Shown here: positions 15,400 through 41,750 of the stretch, piece by piece
Numbering within the stretch: position 1 is the stretch's first letter
How the letters are laid out: each line of letters opens with the position of its first letter
Assembly: GCA_002699585.1 (NCBI GenBank)
Contig: PABP01000036.1
Location: 250,333-314,332 of the forward strand
Source: Anaerolineaceae bacterium
Lineage (GTDB): Bacteria; Chloroflexota; Anaerolineae; Aggregatilineales; Phototrophicaceae
DNA length: 64,000 nucleotides
Direction: 5' to 3'
The notes under the pieces: generated by a model
Databases searched by the model: none
The model's input: the letters and a program-made list of their open reading frames with translations, nothing else
What the model was told of the DNA's origin: nothing
Translations under genes and position numbers: made by a program

Positions 15400-15807
15400 T
15401 TATTCCTGCGCTGCATCTTCTGCACGCCACTGGTCGAAGAGGGCATCGGCAGCGGCCTCGTCCGCGACAAAGTAGACCGCCCCATCGGCGGTGGGAATCA
15501 TATTGCCGACGTGGACATGCACGGCATCGAGTTGGTCCATTGGATAGCCGAGGACGACCGCTTTGCCACTCATCGCGGGGGTGTTGATTTTGCCGAAGCT
15601 GCGCACATGCACCGCCGCGCCCGACGGCATCTTAGTCCGGGTGCCTTTGCGCAGGTCGATCAGCATGTGTACCGGATGCGGCAGGCGCAGCATAGAGAAG
15701 GAACAGGCCCGCGCCGCATGATGGTAATCACGCCAGTTCCAATCGCCCTCAGCGATGAGCTGCATCACTGTTTGTCCTTCGTCGCGCCACTCAAAATGGA
15801 AAGCCAT
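15400..15807 (-). CDS. STAS/SpoIIAA-like small protein
   Basis: Start set at ATG 15807 (MAFHFEWRDEG), which has AAGGA 8 nt upstream, rather than TTG at 15852. The 135-residue protein has an alternating beta-alpha layout: a first strand (TVMQLIAEGDW), an amphipathic helix, a strand MLIDLRKG, a helix, the strand KAVVLGYP, then VYFVADEAAADALFDQW. The last segment matches the end of SpoIIAA/STAS-like domains, where a strand is followed by an Ala-rich helix. Distant relative of the array at 17218-20393. Function unknown; family members often serve as protein-interaction modules. Confidence 0.6.
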   Translation of the reverse strand: MAFHFEWRDEGQTVMQLIAEGDWNWRDYHHAARACSFSMLRLPHPVHMLIDLRKGTRTKMPSGAAVHVRSFGKINTPAMSGKAVVLGYPMDQLDAVHVHVGNMIPTADGAVYFVADEAAADALFDQWRAEDAAQE

Positions 15808-15989: not shown

Positions 15990-16745
15990 ATGACCACGAC
16001 CGGATTTGACAGCCCTGTATTTGACGACGACCCTATTCTGGGCCGTTTTGTCGCTTATTTCCCCAGCTATCGACTGCGGCTACTCATTATTGGCGGGCTG
16101 CTGTATGGCATCCCGGTGCTGGTGCTGCAAGTGCTGCTGGCCAATGTTGAAGGCGCCAGCGTACTGATTATCGGCAGCTACGCGGGGATTGCCCTGCTGG
16201 TCGGCTGGTATGTATTGCACCTTTGGAACCGCGAGGTCATCGTCTACGAGAACGGCTTTACCTATCGACAAGGCAGCCAGATTGGCTATTTTCGGTTTGT
16301 GGACATCACGCGCATTCATCAGCACGCGGAACGGGTATCGTACTTCGGCATCTTCAAGCGCGATGTGATTACCTATACGCTGCATACCGACCAAGCCGAG
16401 GTCTTGCATGTGAATGCGGTTTACAAAGATGTGGCCAAGCTGGGCCTGCTGCTGGAAAGCAAAATCACAGCAGCGCGGCAGCCGATTGTCGAAGCACAAT
16501 TGGAAGCGGGTAAGCTGGTTGAGTTTGGCAGTTTAACAATGACTGACAAGGGCCTGCGCTATGCTGAGCATGTACTGGCCTGGGATGATTTTGGCAAGGT
16601 AGCCATCGAACGTGGCGCCCTGCGGCTCCTAGATCACAATCAGGTGGAACATGTGAGCATTCCACTGGCTGAACTGGATAATCTGATGCTGCTGGTCAAG
16701 TTGCTGCGCGACCATCAGCCGACTGCTGAAAGCACGCCTGCATGA
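15990..16745 (+). CDS. Membrane protein with PH-like cytoplasmic domain, unknown function
   Basis: Start set at ATG 15990 (MTTTGFDSPVFDDDP); the frame is open from 15906. Two adjacent transmembrane helices at residues ~31-52 and ~58-78 precede a beta-rich part with YENGFTYRQGSQIGYFRFVDITRIHQ, which resembles the bacterial PH-like domains found in DUF6585-type proteins, followed by a second similar beta segment (LTMTDKGLRYAEHVLAWDDF). The family assignment is tentative. It overlaps the next gene by four bases (ATGA), so the two are translationally coupled. Confidence 0.65.
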   Translation: MTTTGFDSPVFDDDPILGRFVAYFPSYRLRLLIIGGLLYGIPVLVLQVLLANVEGASVLIIGSYAGIALLVGWYVLHLWNREVIVYENGFTYRQGSQIGYFRFVDITRIHQHAERVSYFGIFKRDVITYTLHTDQAEVLHVNAVYKDVAKLGLLLESKITAARQPIVEAQLEAGKLVEFGSLTMTDKGLRYAEHVLAWDDFGKVAIERGALRLLDHNQVEHVSIPLAELDNLMLLVKLLRDHQPTAESTPA

Positions 16746-17212
16746 TCTACGAGATTCACCTGTATGTCCCCAAGGCCAAGCACCTCAGCCCTAAGATGAT
16801 CGACTGGTTGTACGAAAACGGACAAGGGCAATCGCCGGAGTGGCACTGGCCCGTTCGGAAAATCCGGCAGAAAGCTTTAGCACGGCATATGCTGCGCCTG
16901 GACCCTTCCCTGGTGCCGATACAGGCCCCTGGCGGCGATGTCGAGCTGCATTATCCAGATGAGCGTATTGGCCTGGTAATGTATATCCATGACCGGGGCG
17001 TGATTGTGTTCTTCCCGTATATGGCCTACAGCATTTATTCGCGGGTGGTGTTGGGGATTTGCTATACGTATATTCGCTTTTTGTACGATGCAGCCGGCTT
17101 CTGGAGTTTTGACCCACAGTTGAACGTCATTAGCTATGCCGACGATTTCGTCAGCATTGAAGATACGGCGGCCCTCATGGACCAGATGCTGCCCAAGCAG
17201 TTACAGGGGTAA
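16742..17212 (+). CDS. Conserved-looking hypothetical protein
   Basis: 156 residues, translationally coupled to the preceding membrane protein through ATGA. Sequence is rich in aromatic residues, with alternate strand and helix segments (MIYEIHLYVPKAKHLSPKMI; VELHYPDERIGLVMYIHDRG; VIVFFPYMAYSIY) and one moderately hydrophobic segment (VVLGICYTYIRFLYDAAGFW) that is too polar for a confident membrane call. I do not recognise it. The tail SYADDFVSIEDTAALMDQM looks helical. Coupling implies it works with its partner. Confidence 0.6.
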   Translation: MIYEIHLYVPKAKHLSPKMIDWLYENGQGQSPEWHWPVRKIRQKALARHMLRLDPSLVPIQAPGGDVELHYPDERIGLVMYIHDRGVIVFFPYMAYSIYSRVVLGICYTYIRFLYDAAGFWSFDPQLNVISYADDFVSIEDTAALMDQMLPKQLQG

Positions 17213-17217
17213 GCGCC

Positions 17218-17622
17218 TTACAATTGCCCATTCGCCTCAAACAGAGTGTGACGTTCATCTAACCAGGCCAGAGCTTCTTGCTCTGACTTGCACAAGCGGA
17301 TAAAGTCCACACGCTGGGCCTGCTGCATGGCAAAGCGCACAACACCAAACATCAAAGAATTTTCTGAGATCATAGCGGCAGATATGGACAAGGATTTAGG
17401 TCGATCCCTTAGCATGGAGATTGCTTGTGACGTGGAATAGGGCGTGGGTAGCGCACTTTCAGAAAAATAGGCTAAGCAGCGAAGGTGCTCGTTTCGGGTA
17501 TCGTATTCATTCATGACCTGGCGCAATGTACAGATCCATTCATCAGTTGTATCGCGCTTGAAATCCATAAAAGCCCAGACATAGATGCCATCTGGCCGGA
17601 CATCCACCTTTAAACCACTCAT
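17218..17622 (-). CDS. STAS/SpoIIAA-like protein, array member 1
   Basis: First of six tandem paralogues. Start ATG 17622 (MSGLKVDVRPDGIYVW) is chosen over TTG 17625 because all members begin MSG/MTG. The shared layout is strand (PDGIYVWAFMD), helix (TTDEWICTLRQVMNEY), strand (HLRCLAYFSE), the motif ALPTPYSTSQAI, strand (SLSISAAMISEN), helix, then a strand followed by EALAWLDERH. The final strand-helix unit resembles the end of SpoIIAA/STAS domains. Length 134 residues, no signal peptide and no other domain. Function unknown; likely a cytoplasmic protein-interaction module. The gap to member 2 is 32 bp. Confidence 0.7.
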   Translation of the reverse strand: MSGLKVDVRPDGIYVWAFMDFKRDTTDEWICTLRQVMNEYDTRNEHLRCLAYFSESALPTPYSTSQAISMLRDRPKSLSISAAMISENSLMFGVVRFAMQQAQRVDFIRLCKSEQEALAWLDERHTLFEANGQL

Positions 17623-17654
17623 CAATGACCTAACTTTGGCTCTCGCTCTGTCGA

Positions 17655-18086
17655 TTATGTCTCAGTACTTGTCAACTCATAACGCATCAAGTTCTTGGCT
17701 AAAAATACGTTCTGACATTCCGTTAACCAGTGTATGGCTTGTTCGTCCGTATCAAAAAAGTGAATGTAGTCGATGTTTGATACTGTATTCATCGCAAAAC
17801 GAACGATATTGAACATCATCTTGTTTTCAGAAACCATCGCAACCGACATGACAAGGTTCGGCGGAATAACTTTCATGGCCTCAATGGCTTCTTTGGTCGC
17901 ATAGGGAGTTGGCAACGCTTCCCTATCGAAATGGACAAGGCAACTGAAATGGCCTTGTTCCTCATCTAATTTTTTTAGCGTCTGACGAAAGAGACTTATC
18001 CACGCATCGGTTGTGTCTCGGCGCAAGTCTTTATAGTGCCAGTATAGAATGCCATCGGGTCTTTCTGTCGGCATAAAACCTGTCAT
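17655..18086 (-). CDS. STAS/SpoIIAA-like protein, array member 2
   Basis: 143 residues beginning MTGFMPTERPDGILYWHYKD, with TTDAWISLFRQTLKKLDEE, the motif ALPTPYATKEAIEAM and the strand LVMSVAMVSENKMMF. The C-terminal signature is diverged (IHWLTECQNVF instead of AWLNERHxxF), and the protein has a short extra tail. ATG at 18086 follows AAGGTCC. Upstream is a 274-bp AT-rich gap, so it and member 1 probably form their own transcript. Confidence 0.7.
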   Translation of the reverse strand: MTGFMPTERPDGILYWHYKDLRRDTTDAWISLFRQTLKKLDEEQGHFSCLVHFDREALPTPYATKEAIEAMKVIPPNLVMSVAMVSENKMMFNIVRFAMNTVSNIDYIHFFDTDEQAIHWLTECQNVFLAKNLMRYELTSTET

Positions 18087-18360
18087 TTGGACCTTCTCTT
18101 AGAGAGGAAGAACTACTCTGCATATCCATTATCAAGTTGCACATTCAGACTTACTGCCTCACCAGATCCTTGCGCGGCATTTTCTTATTGACGATCTGTG
18201 TCAGAAGTCGTTACTGACTGCTACGTAGACAAGTATATCGTTGAAATAGGCATTACTTCGTAAACTTTTAGGCGATGAAGAAAATCAGTCTATTACGCAA
18301 GATTAAAAATGACATCTGTCATCTCGGAAAAATACGAGGGGCTTCGAGCTTGCACTCGGA

Positions 18361-18771
18361 TTATTCGTCCAGGGGCAACCTTTGTTGGAATTTGCGATGA
18401 CGCTCATTTAGCCAGGCATTCGCCTCATCGACGCTCTCCACCAGATGGATACTACGGCCGTTGTAAACATGGGTGACAACATGTTGAGATGAGTTCATCA
18501 GAATGCGGGTAGGTATAACTGCAGCAATCGAGAGCTTTAGGTCTGGATCAGCCGAACTGAGGACACTTATGGAGCGCATAACAAGATAGGGGGTCGGCAA
18601 GAGATCGGCATCAAAGGTATAGAAGACCCGCAAGTGCTGGTCGGTCTCGTGATAAGTGCGCTGTAGGGCCATGACTGTCTCAGCCCATTCGCTGACTGTT
18701 TCGCGTTCCATGTCCGCGAAGTGGAAAGAATGAACTCCATCAAATCGTAATGTAACACTTAGTCTACTCAT
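18361..18771 (-). CDS. STAS/SpoIIAA-like protein, array member 3
   Basis: Start set at ATG 18771 (MSRLSVTLRFDGVHSFHFAD) with AGGTG upstream; the frame is open further but family members start here. It carries ETVSEWAETVMALQRTY, LLPTPYLVMRSISVL, LSIAAVIPTRILM and ANAWLNERHRKFQQRLPL. The PTPYL variant is shared with member 4, indicating that these two are the most recent pair or belong to one subgroup. Stop at 18361. Confidence 0.7.
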   Translation of the reverse strand: MSRLSVTLRFDGVHSFHFADMERETVSEWAETVMALQRTYHETDQHLRVFYTFDADLLPTPYLVMRSISVLSSADPDLKLSIAAVIPTRILMNSSQHVVTHVYNGRSIHLVESVDEANAWLNERHRKFQQRLPLDE

Positions 18772-18935
18772 AAAGCACCTATATAATAATATATTATTTA
18801 ATATACATTCTATCTCATTAATCAATTGATAAGTCTAGTGATTACTATCGTTGATCTAGACGTTTGTATAATTAACTTGAACACCAGCAAGGCGTCCTAA
18901 AACCTGGTGGTTAATCGTAAGCTACGATAAGCAAG

Positions 18936-19346
18936 TTAACGCTCAAGCGCACTCCCTTGCTGATATTGACGATGGCGCTCATTCAACCAGCCGTTACCCT
19001 CTTCCACCTTTGTTACCAGATGGATGTGTTTAGAGCGATGGATCCGCTTCATGACATGCGTGATACCCATTGTAATATTCGGGTTCTTAACTGTCATAGC
19101 AGCCGAGATTACAAGGTCGGTTGGTCGGGCATTAAGTACACCAATGGCACGCTTAAGGAGATAAGGCGTGGGCATAATGTCTGGATCAAATATATACAAC
19201 AAGCGTAGATGACGGGCGTCTACGTGATAAGCGTGATAGAGGGCCTGGATTTGTTCAGCCCACTCATTGACTGTTTGACGGGACAGATCATGAACATGTA
19301 TGACGATAACGTCATCGGATCTTGTTTCAATGTGCAAGCCGCTCAT
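18936..19346 (-). CDS. STAS/SpoIIAA-like protein, array member 4
   Basis: 136 residues starting MSGLHIETRSDDVIVIHVHD, with QTVNEWAEQIQALYHAY, IMPTPYLLKRAIGVLN, LVISAAMTVKNPN and EGNGWLNERHRQYQQGSAL. It lies 10 bp downstream of member 5 in the same direction, so members 6, 5 and 4 are likely one transcript. Weak ribosome-binding site before ATG 19346. Confidence 0.7.
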   Translation of the reverse strand: MSGLHIETRSDDVIVIHVHDLSRQTVNEWAEQIQALYHAYHVDARHLRLLYIFDPDIMPTPYLLKRAIGVLNARPTDLVISAAMTVKNPNITMGITHVMKRIHRSKHIHLVTKVEEGNGWLNERHRQYQQGSALER

Positions 19347-19356
19347 AGTCTCACAT

Positions 19357-19764
19357 TCAATACTCTAGCCTGATACCCTGTAGGTATTTAGCATGACGTT
19401 CGTTCAACCAGGCGATACCTTCTTTGACACTTCTGACGAGCCAGATGTTACCGGGTTTGCGAATCCGTTTTAGGACGTAATCAGCGGCTAACAGCAAGTG
19501 AAAACTCAGAAGAACAACGGCAGAAGAACTACGCAGTGTTGGTGGCGTCATTGCTGCCAACTGAATCGCTCTTTGAGTCGCGTAGGGCGTGGGCAACTTC
19601 AAGCAACTAGATAAATAAAGTACCCGTAAATGCCCATCTGTTTTGAAATCATTTTGGATTATCTGACTATATCGCACCCAATCGTCAATAGTTTCATTAT
19701 CCAGTTCTGTTATACGAAATATAAATAACTCATTAGGCCGTTCTTCAGCCACGAAACCACTCAC
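19357..19764 (-). CDS. STAS/SpoIIAA-like protein, array member 5
   Basis: GTG at 19764 (VSGFVAEERPNELFIFR) is chosen: it has AGGAG 7 nt upstream, matches the family N-terminus, and removes an overlap with member 6 that the longer reading (19791) would create. The protein has TIDDWVRYSQIIQNDF, LKLPTPYATQRAIQL, SSAVVLLSFHLLL in place of the usual AMxxxN strand, and GIAWLNERHAKYLQGIRL. 135 residues. Confidence 0.7.
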   Translation of the reverse strand: MSGFVAEERPNELFIFRITELDNETIDDWVRYSQIIQNDFKTDGHLRVLYLSSCLKLPTPYATQRAIQLAAMTPPTLRSSSAVVLLSFHLLLAADYVLKRIRKPGNIWLVRSVKEGIAWLNERHAKYLQGIRLEY

Positions 19765-19774
19765 GCGCTGTCTC

Positions 19775-20203
19775 CTAGATATGATCGTCACTTACCAAGG
19801 GCAACCCCTGTTGAAATCTGCGATGGCGTTCATTCAACCAAGTGACGGCTTCTTCGAAATCCTTGAATGGATGGATGTGTTCTGAGTAAGGTATGCGCTT
19901 ATTGATATACTGTACAGCCATATCAAAGTATAGGTTTGGGATGATTATGGCAGAGGAAAAGCTCAACGTCGATGATCTTGATCCCACAAGGCTTATCGTT
20001 TGACGCACTGCATAGGGAGATGTAGTTGACAATGACCCGGTAGGTAGTTGATGGATTACACGCAAATGACGATGGTTCGTATCGTATTCCTCTTGTATTT
20101 TTAGGCTTTTCTTGACCCAATCGTCAATTGTATTTTTCTCAGAATCCTTGAAAGAATAGACTAATATACCATCAGGCCGTTCTGCAAAATGAAAACCACT
20201 CAT
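19775..20203 (-). CDS. STAS/SpoIIAA-like protein, array member 6
   Basis: 142 residues starting MSGFHFAERPDGILVYSFKD, then NTIDDWVKKSLKIQEEYDT, HLRVIHQLPTG, SFSSAIIIPNLYFDM and AVTWLNERHRRFQQGLPLV. Its central motif is altered by a small insertion (SLSTTSPYAVRQTISL instead of LPTPYA). It ends 10 bp before the member 5 start and lies just downstream of the decayed member 7, whose N-terminus is most similar to it. Confidence 0.7.
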   Translation of the reverse strand: MSGFHFAERPDGILVYSFKDSEKNTIDDWVKKSLKIQEEYDTNHRHLRVIHQLPTGSLSTTSPYAVRQTISLVGSRSSTLSFSSAIIIPNLYFDMAVQYINKRIPYSEHIHPFKDFEEAVTWLNERHRRFQQGLPLVSDDHI

Positions 20204-20227
20204 ACTGTTGTCTCAGATAAGCTAGTG

Positions 20228-20393
20228 AACAATTAAAGGCAACGCCTCGCCGATATTAGCTATGGCGCACTTGTAAACAGGCGTTACCCTCGTCCACACT
20301 TTTAAACAAAAGTATGTATTAGGGCGATGGATCGGTTTCATAGTCATAGATCAGAATGCCATCGTGTTGTCTTTCAAGATAGAACCCACTCAT
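20228..20393 (-). pseudogene. Decayed STAS/SpoIIAA-like array member 7
   Basis: From ATG 20393 the frame reads MSGFYLERQHDGILIYDYE, matching the first strand of the family, and stops after six further codons. Immediately downstream, in mixed frames, family C-terminal sequence appears: LLFKSVDEGNACLQVRHS, comparable to the HLVTKVEEGNGWLNERH of member 4. The middle ~70 codons are missing, so it is an internally deleted and frameshifted relic. It was found by hand translation and is too short for ordinary ORF calling. Confidence 0.75.
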
Positions 20394-20594
20394 CGAACAC
20401 CTACACACCTATTCTCTTGTAGTACCTTTAGTGTATTATCAAACGCAATTCAGGAACATTAAGTATATTCTTAACGATCATTCTAAACATATTTTGCTAA
20501 AGCACAATGAGCTAAGTATCAACCTGATATGAGTAGTTATAGCCATTACAAATAATAATGAGTCATGTACATACGAGCTGTACATATATGAAAA
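20394..20594. other. AT-rich intergenic region upstream of the array
   Basis: A strongly AT-rich 200-bp gap between the decayed array member and the terminator of the lipoprotein gene. It contains two TGTACA palindromes at 20566-20571 and 20579-20584. No gene is seen. Confidence 0.4.
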
Positions 20595-20652: not shown

Positions 20653-21897
20653 CTAACATCCGCCTTTTTGCAACGTATAGTCGAACTGGCGAGTGTTATT
20701 GTCTTCGTTGATTTCCGCAACGGCATTATCAGGATCGACAGTCGCCAGGTAACGATGGCCTTCCCCGAAGAATGTCGAGACAGTCAGCGTAATCTGTACG
20801 GTGACGTTCTGGCCCGGTTGCAGCGCCGGGATGGTCGCAGAACTGACAGCCTGCTCATTGCCATTATGGATATCTTGCAGCACGACATTGGTCTGGGTGC
20901 TGGGCGATGTCCCGCTGTTGGCAACCGTGATGGATGTGGTCGCGGTTTGCAAGCAGCTTGGCGTTGGCGGGTTGGTGGACCAATCAACAATGCTCAGGTC
21001 AACTTCCGCAACAGGAACCGGCGTGTTAGTGGGTGCTGGCGTAGCCGTCGGTGGCGGTGGTGGCGGATTTTCTACGGGAAGGTTGCCAATATCGCCGTTA
21101 ACCTCAACTAGCCAACCCGCAATCCAACCGGATGAGTTGAAAACTTCAATGCGGAACCAAGCGCGATCGGCGTTGGGTTCCGGGTTGCGTGCCAAAATAC
21201 GGAAGCTTTCCCCGGCGGCGACACTGCCCAGGGGTGGTTCGTAATTGACACCGGGACCTCGCCGGATATTGGCGCCTTGCAATGTGGTCGCTGTCGGGAA
21301 ACTCTCGGTGGGGGGAACGGCAGTTGTTGGCTCTGGCGCGGCTTGCTGCGGCTGCGTGGGCGCGGTAGTCGCTGTTGCGGCAGGCTGAGCGGCATTATCC
21401 GTGCCGTCGCCATTGGATGTGGTATCAGTCTGGGATGCGGCATCCTCGGTGGGGGTTTCCGTCACCTGCGGCTCAACCTCACCCTGTACGCTGAACATGA
21501 CCGATGCAGGGTCGCTGGTGGTGCCATCATCGCGCATGGCGACGACTTCCAGCGTGTAGTCGCCAAGTGTGGTCGCTGGCCAACTGGTTTCGACAGAAAA
21601 GGCTGCGGCTGTCTGGGCGCTGGCATCGGTGGTGCCAATATTGACACCGTTAATCGTCAGGGAAACGGTCGCCATATCCGGCCCAGCATTTTCGATACGG
21701 GTCGAGATCACGACGGAGGCATCTTTTAAGTAAACCGCATTGGGCTGTGGCGACATGATGCGCACCTGCGGCGGACCTTCAAAGGCGGTTGTTTGGCTTT
21801 CACCATCTTCGGCTGTCGAGGTGCAGGCCGCTAAGAGGGCCACAACAGCGATTAACAACAGGGTGGCTGTTCCACGCCGGAAAATCGCAGCTTTCAT
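20653..21897 (-). CDS. Lipoprotein with SH3b and CARDB-like domains
   Basis: Start set at ATG 21897 (MKAAIFRRGTATLLLIAVVA), preceded by GAGGAGA; the frame is open for 54 codons upstream but that part lacks signal-like sequence. A lipobox LAAC follows the hydrophobic helix, so the protein is probably lipid-anchored outside. Next come an Ig-like beta domain (PQVRIMSPQPNAVYL), a Thr/Ala/Pro-rich linker, a bacterial SH3 domain (LQGANIRRGPGVNYEPPLGS to GWLVEVNG) and a C-terminal CARDB-like adhesion domain (VDLSIVDWSTNPPTPSCLQT to AEINEDNN). Likely binds cell wall or surface polymers. 414 residues. Confidence 0.85.
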   Translation of the reverse strand: MKAAIFRRGTATLLLIAVVALLAACTSTAEDGESQTTAFEGPPQVRIMSPQPNAVYLKDASVVISTRIENAGPDMATVSLTINGVNIGTTDASAQTAAAFSVETSWPATTLGDYTLEVVAMRDDGTTSDPASVMFSVQGEVEPQVTETPTEDAASQTDTTSNGDGTDNAAQPAATATTAPTQPQQAAPEPTTAVPPTESFPTATTLQGANIRRGPGVNYEPPLGSVAAGESFRILARNPEPNADRAWFRIEVFNSSGWIAGWLVEVNGDIGNLPVENPPPPPPTATPAPTNTPVPVAEVDLSIVDWSTNPPTPSCLQTATTSITVANSGTSPSTQTNVVLQDIHNGNEQAVSSATIPALQPGQNVTVQITLTVSTFFGEGHRYLATVDPDNAVAEINEDNNTRQFDYTLQKGGC

Positions 21898-22077
21898 AGA
21901 GTTCTCCTCATTGTGCGCAGACAGGCATCGACCGTGAAAGAGGGTCATGCCGTGCGTCAAAAGATCCTTTTCATGCGCCACAGACTGTAGCGCATCGCGC
22001 ACATTTAGGCGAGGGTTATTGCCATTTACCAACGATCCCCTTACGTAGTAGATGGGCAATCGGTGGGCGAATCGACC

Positions 22078-31428: not shown

Positions 31429-31881
31429 ATGGAAACATCCTACCTATATCCTAAGAACATGACCATCGTGACCGATTGCTTTCGGCATGGCTGGACCGCC
31501 TACGGAGATGAACCCATCCTCATTGTTGAATTGGACGCAGTTGATCGTCATACTATTGAACAATGGTTAGCGTTCACTATCGACCTGCGCAGCAACTGGC
31601 CTGACGCGGCGAAACCCATTTACTCCATCATGGATCTGTCCAAGAATGACGTTTCCATGACTCATCTGGCACAAAAAGGTGTCCATGACCTCTCGCAGTA
31701 CAATCCAGACCTCATAACGCATACCGGGTTGGTCACACAGCAATCCGTCCTGGGCACTATACTAAACACCACAACGACCCTCCTCAGCCGCACCATGAAG
31801 ACCTTCAATATCAGGGTTTTTAATAATCACGACAAAGCCTTTCAATGGCTGGTTGGGCTTATGGAACAGAACCAGCACTGA
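31429..31881 (+). CDS. STAS/SpoIIAA-like small protein, distant array relative
   Basis: 150 residues with the same strand-helix order as the array at 17218-20393: DEPILIVELDAV, HTIEQWLAFTIDLRSNW, PIYSIMDLS, a helix, ITHTGLVTQQS, then TFNIRVFNNHDKAFQWLVG. The last block matches the strand-plus-helix end typical of SpoIIAA-like domains. It lacks the PTPYA motif. ATG at 31429. Located away from the array, plus strand, 60 bp before a secreted esterase gene. Confidence 0.6.
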   Translation: METSYLYPKNMTIVTDCFRHGWTAYGDEPILIVELDAVDRHTIEQWLAFTIDLRSNWPDAAKPIYSIMDLSKNDVSMTHLAQKGVHDLSQYNPDLITHTGLVTQQSVLGTILNTTTTLLSRTMKTFNIRVFNNHDKAFQWLVGLMEQNQH

Positions 31882-40100: not shown

Positions 40101-40168
40101 AGAGGGCTGACCACTGAGACCTTTTACCAAAAACTGTCAACTGATGACTAACGACTGGCTTTTTGACG

Positions 40169-40777
40169 ATGGCACAAAACTACAGCTTAACCGACAAAAT
40201 TGCGGCATTGGATACGTTAGCGGCGCATAACGAGGACCTCAACGCGGCCAGTGATGCCTGCGGCGTCAGTGTGAAGACCCTGCGCAAATGGCAGCAGCAA
40301 GAGGCGACGATTCGGCAGCAGCAGGCGCAGCGGTCGATTTTGCTTGCTCGGCAACAGATGGCCGATAAAGCACTCAATCTGGTGCAGGCCATTGATGGCG
40401 AGATGATCGCCAAAGCGCCGCTGAACCAGATCGCCAGTGCGTTAGGTGTACTGGTGGATCGTTACCTCAAGCTGGAAGACGCCGTGCCGGATGACGACAC
40501 AGAGAAAGTAGTTCGCTTTGAGTATTTCTACGACGGCTCAACTCATGTGGCCCCACCCTGGGCAAACCCGGATTATCGAAGCGACGAGCCGCTTCAAGGT
40601 GGTCGCGTGCGGTCGCCGCTTCGGCAAGACGGCGCTGGCACGGACCTTGTTAACGGAAAAAGCCGTTCAGCATGGGATGAAGACCTGGTGGCTGGCCCCG
40701 ACCTATCCGATGGCGACCCAGGTCTGGCGCGACTTGAAGACGGGCCTGACGAGCCTCGCCGCGACTGGTCGGATTAA
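40169..40777 (+). CDS. Terminase small subunit-like protein
   Basis: Start ATG 40169 (MAQNYSLTDKIAALDTLAAH); an upstream in-frame TTG is ignored. The N-terminal ~60 residues hold a helix-turn-helix (NEDLNAASDACGVSVKTLRKWQ) like those of phage terminase small subunits, followed by a helical region (ILLARQQMADKALNLVQAID) used for oligomerisation. The last ~75 residues lie in the same DNA as the start of the large-subunit gene in another frame and have composition of a shadow reading, so the true C-terminus may be near residue 130 and the natural stop lost. It sits directly upstream of the large subunit, as in phage. Confidence 0.6.
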   Translation: MAQNYSLTDKIAALDTLAAHNEDLNAASDACGVSVKTLRKWQQQEATIRQQQAQRSILLARQQMADKALNLVQAIDGEMIAKAPLNQIASALGVLVDRYLKLEDAVPDDDTEKVVRFEYFYDGSTHVAPPWANPDYRSDEPLQGGRVRSPLRQDGAGTDLVNGKSRSAWDEDLVAGPDLSDGDPGLARLEDGPDEPRRDWSD

Positions 40778-41750
40778 GGACATCGCTATCAGCGAAACGC
40801 ACAACCGCATCGACTTCGCCCCCAGCGGCGGCTCCATCGAGATACACAGCACCTTCAATGCCGACTATCTGCGTGGGGCGGGCCTAGATTATGCTGTTCT
40901 GGACGAAGCGGCCTATATGGACCCGACTGTCTGGCCGGAAGTGGTGCGGCCGATGCTGCTCGACCGTCGCGGTGGGGCCATCTTCCTGAGCACGCCCTTT
41001 GGCCGCAACTGGTTTTACCACCTGTTCCAGCACGGCAGCGACCCATTACAGCCAGATTGGGCCGCGTTTCAATTTCCGACGCACAGCAATCCGCTCATCA
41101 GCCCGGATGAACTACGCGATCTAGAGCGCATGACGCCCAGCCGCGTCTGGCGCGAAGAATACCTAGCGGAGTTCATCGACGACGCGGGGGCGGTGTTCCG
41201 GGGCGTGCGCGAGGCCCTCTATACCCCGCCGCTGCCCATCGAGCGCGAAGAAAGCCATCGCTATATTATGGGCGTCGATTGGGGGCGTGATAACGACTAC
41301 ACCGCCCTGGCCGTGCTGGATGCCACCAGCGGCGAACTGGTCGATATGGAACGTTACAATCAGGTGGGGTGGCAAGTGCAGCGCGGTTACATTCGGGATG
41401 CGTATCTGCGCTGGCAGCCACACGTCATCTGGGCGGAAGCCAACAGCATCGGCAGCGTGAATATCGAAGCGTTGCAGCAGGATGGACTGCCCGTGCGTCC
41501 CTTCATGACCACCAGCCGCAGCAAACCGCCGCTGATCGAAGGGTTGGCACTGGCCATCGAACGGCGCGACATCGCCCTTTTACCGGACCCGGTGCTACTC
41601 AATGAGCTGGAAGCCTACACTCTGGAACGGCTCCCTGGCGGCGGCTATCGTTATAGTGCGCCATCGGGCATGCACGATGACACGGTCATTGCGCTGGCAC
41701 TGGCCTGGTATGGGGCACAGCAAGGCAGCCTACGCCTGGACTTCGCGTAA
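40545..41750 (+). CDS. Phage terminase large subunit (TerL-like)
   Basis: Start set at ATG 40545 (MWPHPGQTRIIEATSRFKVV); a TTG at 40518 in the same frame is less likely. 401 residues with an adenine-binding region, Walker A-like GRRFGKT (23-29), Walker B with catalytic Glu LDEAAYMD (~119-126), the coupling motif FLSTPFGRNW, and the RNase H-like nuclease acids in MGVDWGRDNDYTALAVLD and at the end MHDDTVIALALAW. All key residues of ATPase and nuclease appear intact. No portal, capsid or tail gene is nearby, so this is a phage relic or domesticated pair with the small-subunit gene. Confidence 0.88.
   Translation: MWPHPGQTRIIEATSRFKVVACGRRFGKTALARTLLTEKAVQHGMKTWWLAPTYPMATQVWRDLKTGLTSLAATGRIKDIAISETHNRIDFAPSGGSIEIHSTFNADYLRGAGLDYAVLDEAAYMDPTVWPEVVRPMLLDRRGGAIFLSTPFGRNWFYHLFQHGSDPLQPDWAAFQFPTHSNPLISPDELRDLERMTPSRVWREEYLAEFIDDAGAVFRGVREALYTPPLPIEREESHRYIMGVDWGRDNDYTALAVLDATSGELVDMERYNQVGWQVQRGYIRDAYLRWQPHVIWAEANSIGSVNIEALQQDGLPVRPFMTTSRSKPPLIEGLALAIERRDIALLPDPVLLNELEAYTLERLPGGGYRYSAPSGMHDDTVIALALAWYGAQQGSLRLDFA
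41672..41746 (+). repeat. 75-bp direct repeat, left copy (TerL 3' end)
   Basis: Begins GCACGATGACACGGTCATTG and ends at CTTCGC just before the TerL stop. Matches 42785-42859 at 70 of 75 positions. Confidence 0.85.

Follow-up and report, generated by a model that had tools for sequence, protein, structure and literature searches.

Introduction

Proteins of the SpoIIAA-like fold share the order of elements beta1-beta2-alpha1-beta3-alpha2-beta4-alpha3-beta5-alpha4 (PMC2954212). In SpoIIAA, RsbR and RsbS, an equivalent serine or threonine is phosphorylated, and phosphorylation disrupts partner binding; in MlaB, the STAS subunit of MlaFEDB, Thr52 is close to the middle of the MlaF interface (PMC7367683). 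The SpoIIAA-like proteins of Shewanella (PF11964, DUF3478; structures 2ook and 2q3l) have a second conserved cluster consisting of Ala88, Phe114, Ala120, Trp123 and Leu124 (PMC2954212). Here we describe a tandem array of six small paralogues in a 64,000-nucleotide stretch of an Anaerolineaceae bacterium genome (the window; positions 250333-314332 of a 437-kb contig, in a genome of 6.70 Mb and 42 contigs). The array proteins are confidently predicted to adopt the SpoIIAA/STAS fold. Their family is real and largely undescribed, and its expansion is lineage-specific; the array has evolved by local tandem duplication, divergence and loss in each lineage, in the manner of birth-and-death evolution.

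The array and its genes

An earlier note on this DNA had proposed six consecutive minus-strand paralogues of about 134-143 residues, and six intact genes of 134-143 residues (G1 to G6) are indeed found on the minus strand between 17218 and 20203, followed upstream of G6 by the remains of a seventh.

17218-17622, minus strand: G1, SpoIIAA-like paralogue, 134 residues; open reading frame (ORF), array-profile match at E 1.8e-62
17655-18086, minus strand: G2, SpoIIAA-like paralogue, 143 residues; ORF, the member nearest to DUF7793 and PF11964
18361-18771, minus strand: G3, SpoIIAA-like paralogue, 136 residues; ATG at 18771, with a longer TTG-started ORF from 18825
18936-19346, minus strand: G4, SpoIIAA-like paralogue, 136 residues; AlphaFold2 model with a predicted local distance difference test (pLDDT) score of 91.9 and a predicted template modelling (pTM) score of 0.85
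19357-19764, minus strand: G5, SpoIIAA-like paralogue, 135 residues; GTG start, 10 bases after G6
19775-20203, minus strand: G6, SpoIIAA-like paralogue, 142 residues; ORF, profile match
20250-20393, minus strand: broken seventh copy; what is left is an N- and a C-terminal piece sharing a frame, with about 85 intervening codons lost

With G4 as the query, the five other copies matched at E 7e-34 to 4e-12, which excludes chance as the source of the similarity. Their identity to G4 is 26-43%, and the synonymous divergence (dS) between copies is saturated. Since the array lies inside the contig, away from its edges, an assembly artefact is unlikely. The columns invariant in the six copies include T25, W29, H46, T60-P61-Y62, A83, W120, L121 and E123; T25, W29, T60, P61 and Y62 are thus unchanged while the remainder has diverged. 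The shared motifs described in the earlier note stood in part: the T-P-Y triad is invariant and five of the six copies start with MSG or MTG, but G3 starts with MSR and the AWLNERH ending is present only in a loose form. In G6, two residues are inserted ahead of the triad (STTSPY). Promoter matches within the array were at chance level only.

The broken copy begins at 20393, its start codon. Profile positions 1-19 match at 20322-20408 and positions 107-125 at 20259-20318, in the same frame and 4 bases apart, with stop codons between the two pieces and after them. The turnover of paralogues that had been surmised for this array is therefore visible in the DNA itself.

Relation to described families and predicted fold

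Scans against Pfam, NCBIfam, PHROGs, PADLOC and Rfam placed no family above its cut-off, and a test for an anti-phage or phage role gave no credible PADLOC match and no PHROGs match. The nearest Pfam match is DUF7793 (PF25056), a domain without described function, which was matched at E < 0.01 by 7 of 20 members (best 1.7e-4, G2), although the best member reached 22 bits and none the cut-off of 26 bits. The SpoIIAA-like family PF11964 was matched at E < 0.01 by three of the 20 (best 5.1e-4); G2 scored E 0.0014 and 19.7 bits, under the curated cut-off of 25 bits. With an E limit of 1, none of eight proteins scanned matched the canonical STAS family PF01740, and none of the six copies did; a profile-profile comparison with the canonical STAS domains of the same genome was not significant. 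Neither a peptide-pattern search for related loci in a collection of genome contigs, nor a plasmid search, nor a profile search of PDB sequences revealed a relative. Two large open frames resembling domain fusions (L059 and L065) were judged spurious, as their N-terminal halves are arginine-rich and non-protein-like.

The fold was predicted with AlphaFold2 on an alignment of the six array sequences, and the resulting model is confident. Its strands (E) and helices (H), E4-8, E14-18, H23-42, E46-53, H61-72, E79-85, H89-101, E108-111 and H114-129, follow exactly the order that defines the SpoIIAA-like fold, which embraces the STAS, SpoIIAA-like and CRAL-TRIO groups. The top PDB matches of the model are anti-sigma-factor antagonists and STAS domains, among them RsbS, SpoIIAA, a Mycobacterium anti-sigma-factor antagonist and a Dyadobacter STAS protein. 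In Foldseek, the best match was 4qtp (E 5.9e-4), with RsbS (6jhk) at 1.8e-3 and SpoIIAA (1h4z) at 2.7e-2. In the VIA comparison, 4xs5 led with Z 12.1 (root-mean-square deviation 2.7, 117 residues), ahead of RsbS (11.0), SpoIIAA (10.4) and Shewanella DUF3478 2q3l (9.7), and matches from Z 12.1 to 10 covered 106-119 residues. Because carboxy-terminal proteases and crotonase-fold entries likewise reach Z of about 9, the fold class was assigned from the top rows together with the exact order of elements. The STAS/SpoIIAA-like fold that had been read from the strand-helix order thus agrees with both the model and its structural matches.

The comparison with described systems shows where the array family differs. 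It shares with PF11964 the fold, the order of elements, the single domain and a length of 125-140 residues, but it forms tandem arrays of variable copy number. Like SpoIIAA and RsbS it has, judged by the order of elements, a Ser/Thr conserved where alpha2 begins; the array, however, carries T-P-Y where a Ser-Gly motif is usual, and no kinase, phosphatase or sigma factor operon is linked to it. MlaB is also a single-domain STAS regulator, which acts by protein contact through its helical face and in which Thr52 of the alpha2 region is important, but MlaB has neither beta5 nor alpha4 and belongs to a transporter complex, and no transporter is linked to the array. SiaC, the activator of the diguanylate cyclase SiaD, has a similar fold (template modelling score 0.52-0.57), yet its Foldseek E value is just 0.06-0.16, no SiaA/B/D-like operon was seen and there is no family match.

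Conserved signature

Conservation was counted over 49 non-redundant family members. Position 60 is Thr in 40 and Ser in 6 (46 of 49), never Asp or Asn, and directly precedes the modelled helix 61-72; P61 is present in 42 and Y62 in 47. The signature of the family is hence a pair, [T/S]-P-Y opening helix alpha2 and A-x-x-W-L in alpha4. In the second half of the protein, A83 in beta4 (48/49), F111 in beta5 (44/49) and A117, W120 and L121 in alpha4 (43/49, 49/49 and 44/49) correspond by element and spacing to the alpha4-packing cluster of the Shewanella proteins. The Trp-Asp-Asp switch in alpha2 of Shewanella has no counterpart; T-P-Y stands there, followed by variable, often basic residues. As the alpha4 cluster matches Shewanella and T-P-Y replaces Trp-Asp-Asp, the array family belongs with the SpoIIAA-like group as a divergent relative, and has a signature of its own.

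The main rival to the function that we favour below is a role of the array proteins as small carriers or sensors for nonpolar ligands, a different one for each paralogue, on the model of the Shewanella SpoIIAA-like proteins and their resemblance to CRAL-TRIO carriers. The weak PF11964 matches, the similarity of the model to 2q3l and the Foldseek matches to tocopherol transfer proteins and Sfh2 (E about 0.1-0.2) all point this way, as does the Shewanella second cluster. That cluster, however, packs alpha4 and does not form the ligand region; of the Shewanella switch residues, neither Trp71-Asp72-Asp73 in alpha2 nor His6-Gly7 has a counterpart, and no lipid-related partner recurs beside the family. 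We regard a ligand-carrying role as possible but doubtful.

The conserved residues of the edge are R23, D27 and W29 where alpha1 begins, D52 where beta3 ends and T60-P61-Y62 where alpha2 begins, and from the topology of the fold the elements that carry them would meet at one end of the sheet. Judged by the order of elements, Thr60 would occupy the alpha2-start position of the SpoIIAA/RsbR/RsbS phosphosite and of MlaB Thr52, which makes [T/S]-P-Y a candidate contact or phosphorylation site.

Copy-number change between conserved flanks

The same locus was compared in Phototrophicus methaneseepsis ZRK33, a genome of the same genus in a single contig of 5,631,885 bases (PMC8941918). Genes common to both Phototrophicus genomes, 57-86% identical, stand on both sides of the array, including the two immediate flanks.

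16742-17212, plus strand: left flank gene, conserved, 156 residues; 85% identical in P. methaneseepsis
20653-22059, minus strand: right flank gene, conserved, CARDB/SH3 lipoprotein-like; 57% identical in P. methaneseepsis

Between these flanks there are six copies and a broken seventh here versus two in P. methaneseepsis, so that the variable copy number with conserved flanking genes that the earlier note had named as a mark of an evolving array is found. A second cluster, likewise between conserved genes, has four copies here versus two in P. methaneseepsis. The conserved left flank gene was also inspected in eight further genera or species of the family, and the 1.5 kb examined next to it contained no array member. 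In P. methaneseepsis, two unrelated genes that are missing from the window, for a sulfotransferase and an SGNH-hydrolase-like protein, lie between the left flank and the two-copy array (L021:6257-8655).

Trees pair neighbouring copies, with support of 98/95 for G1/G2, 98/93 for G3/G4, 99/96 for G3-G6 and 99/98 for the P. methaneseepsis pair. Placement of the latter pair with G1/G2, with G3-G6 or outside all six is equally compatible with the data (approximately unbiased test, p about 0.4). Since the copies are more diverged from G4 than the flanking orthologues are from each other, either the duplications are ancient and the sister species has lost copies, or evolution in the family is rapid.

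The broken copy, the strong divergence between copies and a G+C content of 44-46%, where most of the flanking DNA has 51-59%, might also be expected of a decaying, largely functionless duplicate cluster under relaxed selection. Against this, the six frames are open and the differences between G3 and G4 by codon position (0.43/0.36/0.61) indicate coding constraint; the fold and the edge residues are retained, and the second locus has expanded likewise. We consider decay very improbable.

Distribution in the order and phylum

A profile built from 20 members (match threshold E < 1e-6) found the family in 69 of the 154 genomes of the order. This genome has about 17 members, 16 at E < 1e-6 and a distant one, dispersed within the window, in which the T-P-Y triad is lost and SMTHL stands instead.

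31429-31881, plus strand: distant dispersed family member without T-P-Y; array profile E 1.6e-6, wider profile E 1.3e-12

Across the phylum, which was sampled thinly, a single diverged copy turned up in many genomes belonging to one other family of the class, and there was little besides. The 66 separate loci comprise 54 singletons, 10 pairs, one cluster of four and one of six, and both large arrays belong to this genome. The array had been put forward as the best candidate in the window for an undescribed system; it is neither unique nor isolated, being one expanded locus of a wider family. It had also been called unusual for having no embedded kinase or enzyme gene, which proved ordinary for the family, given its many singletons and the absence of a Ser/Thr protein kinase gene adjacent to a member at any of the 66 loci.

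Gene neighbourhood and possible function

No kinase, phosphatase or sigma factor is linked to the array. A link with Ser/Thr kinases was dropped; such genes recur within several kb of some loci, none adjacent. A two-component gene adjoins nine loci. Such genes make up 9 of 165 adjacent genes, compared with 12 of 610 among the remaining genes of these loci (p 0.02, uncorrected, with query kinases independent of the loci); random stretches of related genomes gave 15 of 626. A p of 0.0003 for two-component neighbours was discarded, as the query kinases there were themselves neighbours.

These neighbourhoods bear on whether the array proteins are anti-sigma-factor antagonists of classical partner switching, in which a serine kinase would phosphorylate T60, a PP2C phosphatase would reverse this and the unphosphorylated form would free a sigma factor. 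The SpoIIAA/RsbS fold and the conserved Ser/Thr at the equivalent helix start are consistent with it, the genome encodes RsbT/RsbW-like kinases and SpoIIE-type phosphatases, and the four-copy cluster is about 2 kb from an extracytoplasmic function (ECF) sigma factor gene. On the other hand, the six copies have no match to PF01740 and none of significance to the canonical STAS domains of the genome, no RsbW/RsbT-type gene stands beside any array, and about 17 family members face only a few such kinases in the genome. Classical partner switching therefore appears unlikely.

The explanation that we favour, at about even chances, is that the copies are diverging soluble protein-binding switches or adaptors acting in trans, as suggested by the conserved edge residues and the analogies with SpoIIAA, RsbR, RsbS and MlaB. 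The predicted fold, the differing copy number between shared flanks, the pairing of neighbouring copies in trees and the two-component neighbours also count in its favour. The array is a genus-specific tandem expansion of a small single-domain SpoIIAA/STAS-fold protein by repeated local duplication, divergence and loss. The edge formed by the start of alpha1, the end of beta3 and the [T/S]-P-Y start of alpha2 would contact a partner encoded elsewhere, and divergence may have fitted the paralogues to different partners or signals. The conserved Thr/Ser might be phosphorylated, as happens in SpoIIAA and RsbS, but the data do not require this.

Several points weigh against the adaptor explanation. 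No partner gene is conserved beside the family at the 66 loci examined, and the canonical partner-switching kinases of this genome lie apart from the arrays, in an RsbR/S/T-SpoIIE-like module on contig C7 and an RsbV/RsbW-like pair on C35. The enrichment of two-component genes is weak; it is uncorrected for the two gene classes tried, and the loci behind it lack independence. Helices also commonly begin with Thr-Pro, so that a structural reason for the conservation of this pair is possible, and the putative equivalence of Thr60 to the SpoIIAA phosphoserine is based on the order of secondary structure and not on a residue-level structural alignment.

A more elaborate form of the adaptor explanation, which we think distinctly unlikely, would make the arrays a Chloroflexota-specific, rapidly turning-over repertoire of phospho-switchable adaptors. 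Shared kinases or histidine-kinase systems from other loci would read the T-P-Y edge that the copies have in common, the remainder of each copy would be specialised for its own client, and gene duplication would directly add branches to a signalling network.

Should the copies prove to be partner-binding switches, the array would illustrate how a bacterial regulatory network can grow when only the adaptor is duplicated in tandem and kinases and receptors are not. Environmental Chloroflexota genomes contain many small unannotated SpoIIAA-like proteins, and a family with a clear signature and a confident fold, with two copies in the cultured P. methaneseepsis and six at the same locus in its relative, offers a natural experiment.

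Other observations

The unlinked module on contig C7 (L026:10469-13229) is a stressosome-like operon with an RsbR-like PAS-STAS protein, an RsbS-like protein, two RsbT/RsbW-type ATPases and a SpoIIE-type phosphatase. The four-copy cluster on contig C28 (L023:5435-10003) follows genes for the ECF sigma factor, a protein with an anti-sigma-like N-terminus and a NUDIX protein, and is separated by about 1.7 kb from a large Ser/Thr kinase-AAA-TPR gene beyond it. Within the window, ORFs resembling, by eye, the small and large subunits of phage terminase are found at 40163-41750 on the plus strand, with no other obvious phage gene nearby.

A second family of about 135 residues is represented in the window at 15400-15807 on the minus strand, with 72% identity in P. 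methaneseepsis. From its sequence, with an LIDLR...PAG motif and an alternating strand/helix appearance, it is possibly another SpoIIAA-like family; single-sequence prediction reached a pLDDT of 34 and no fold is claimed. It is multi-copy in relatives, with 8 matches here and 11 in one relative.

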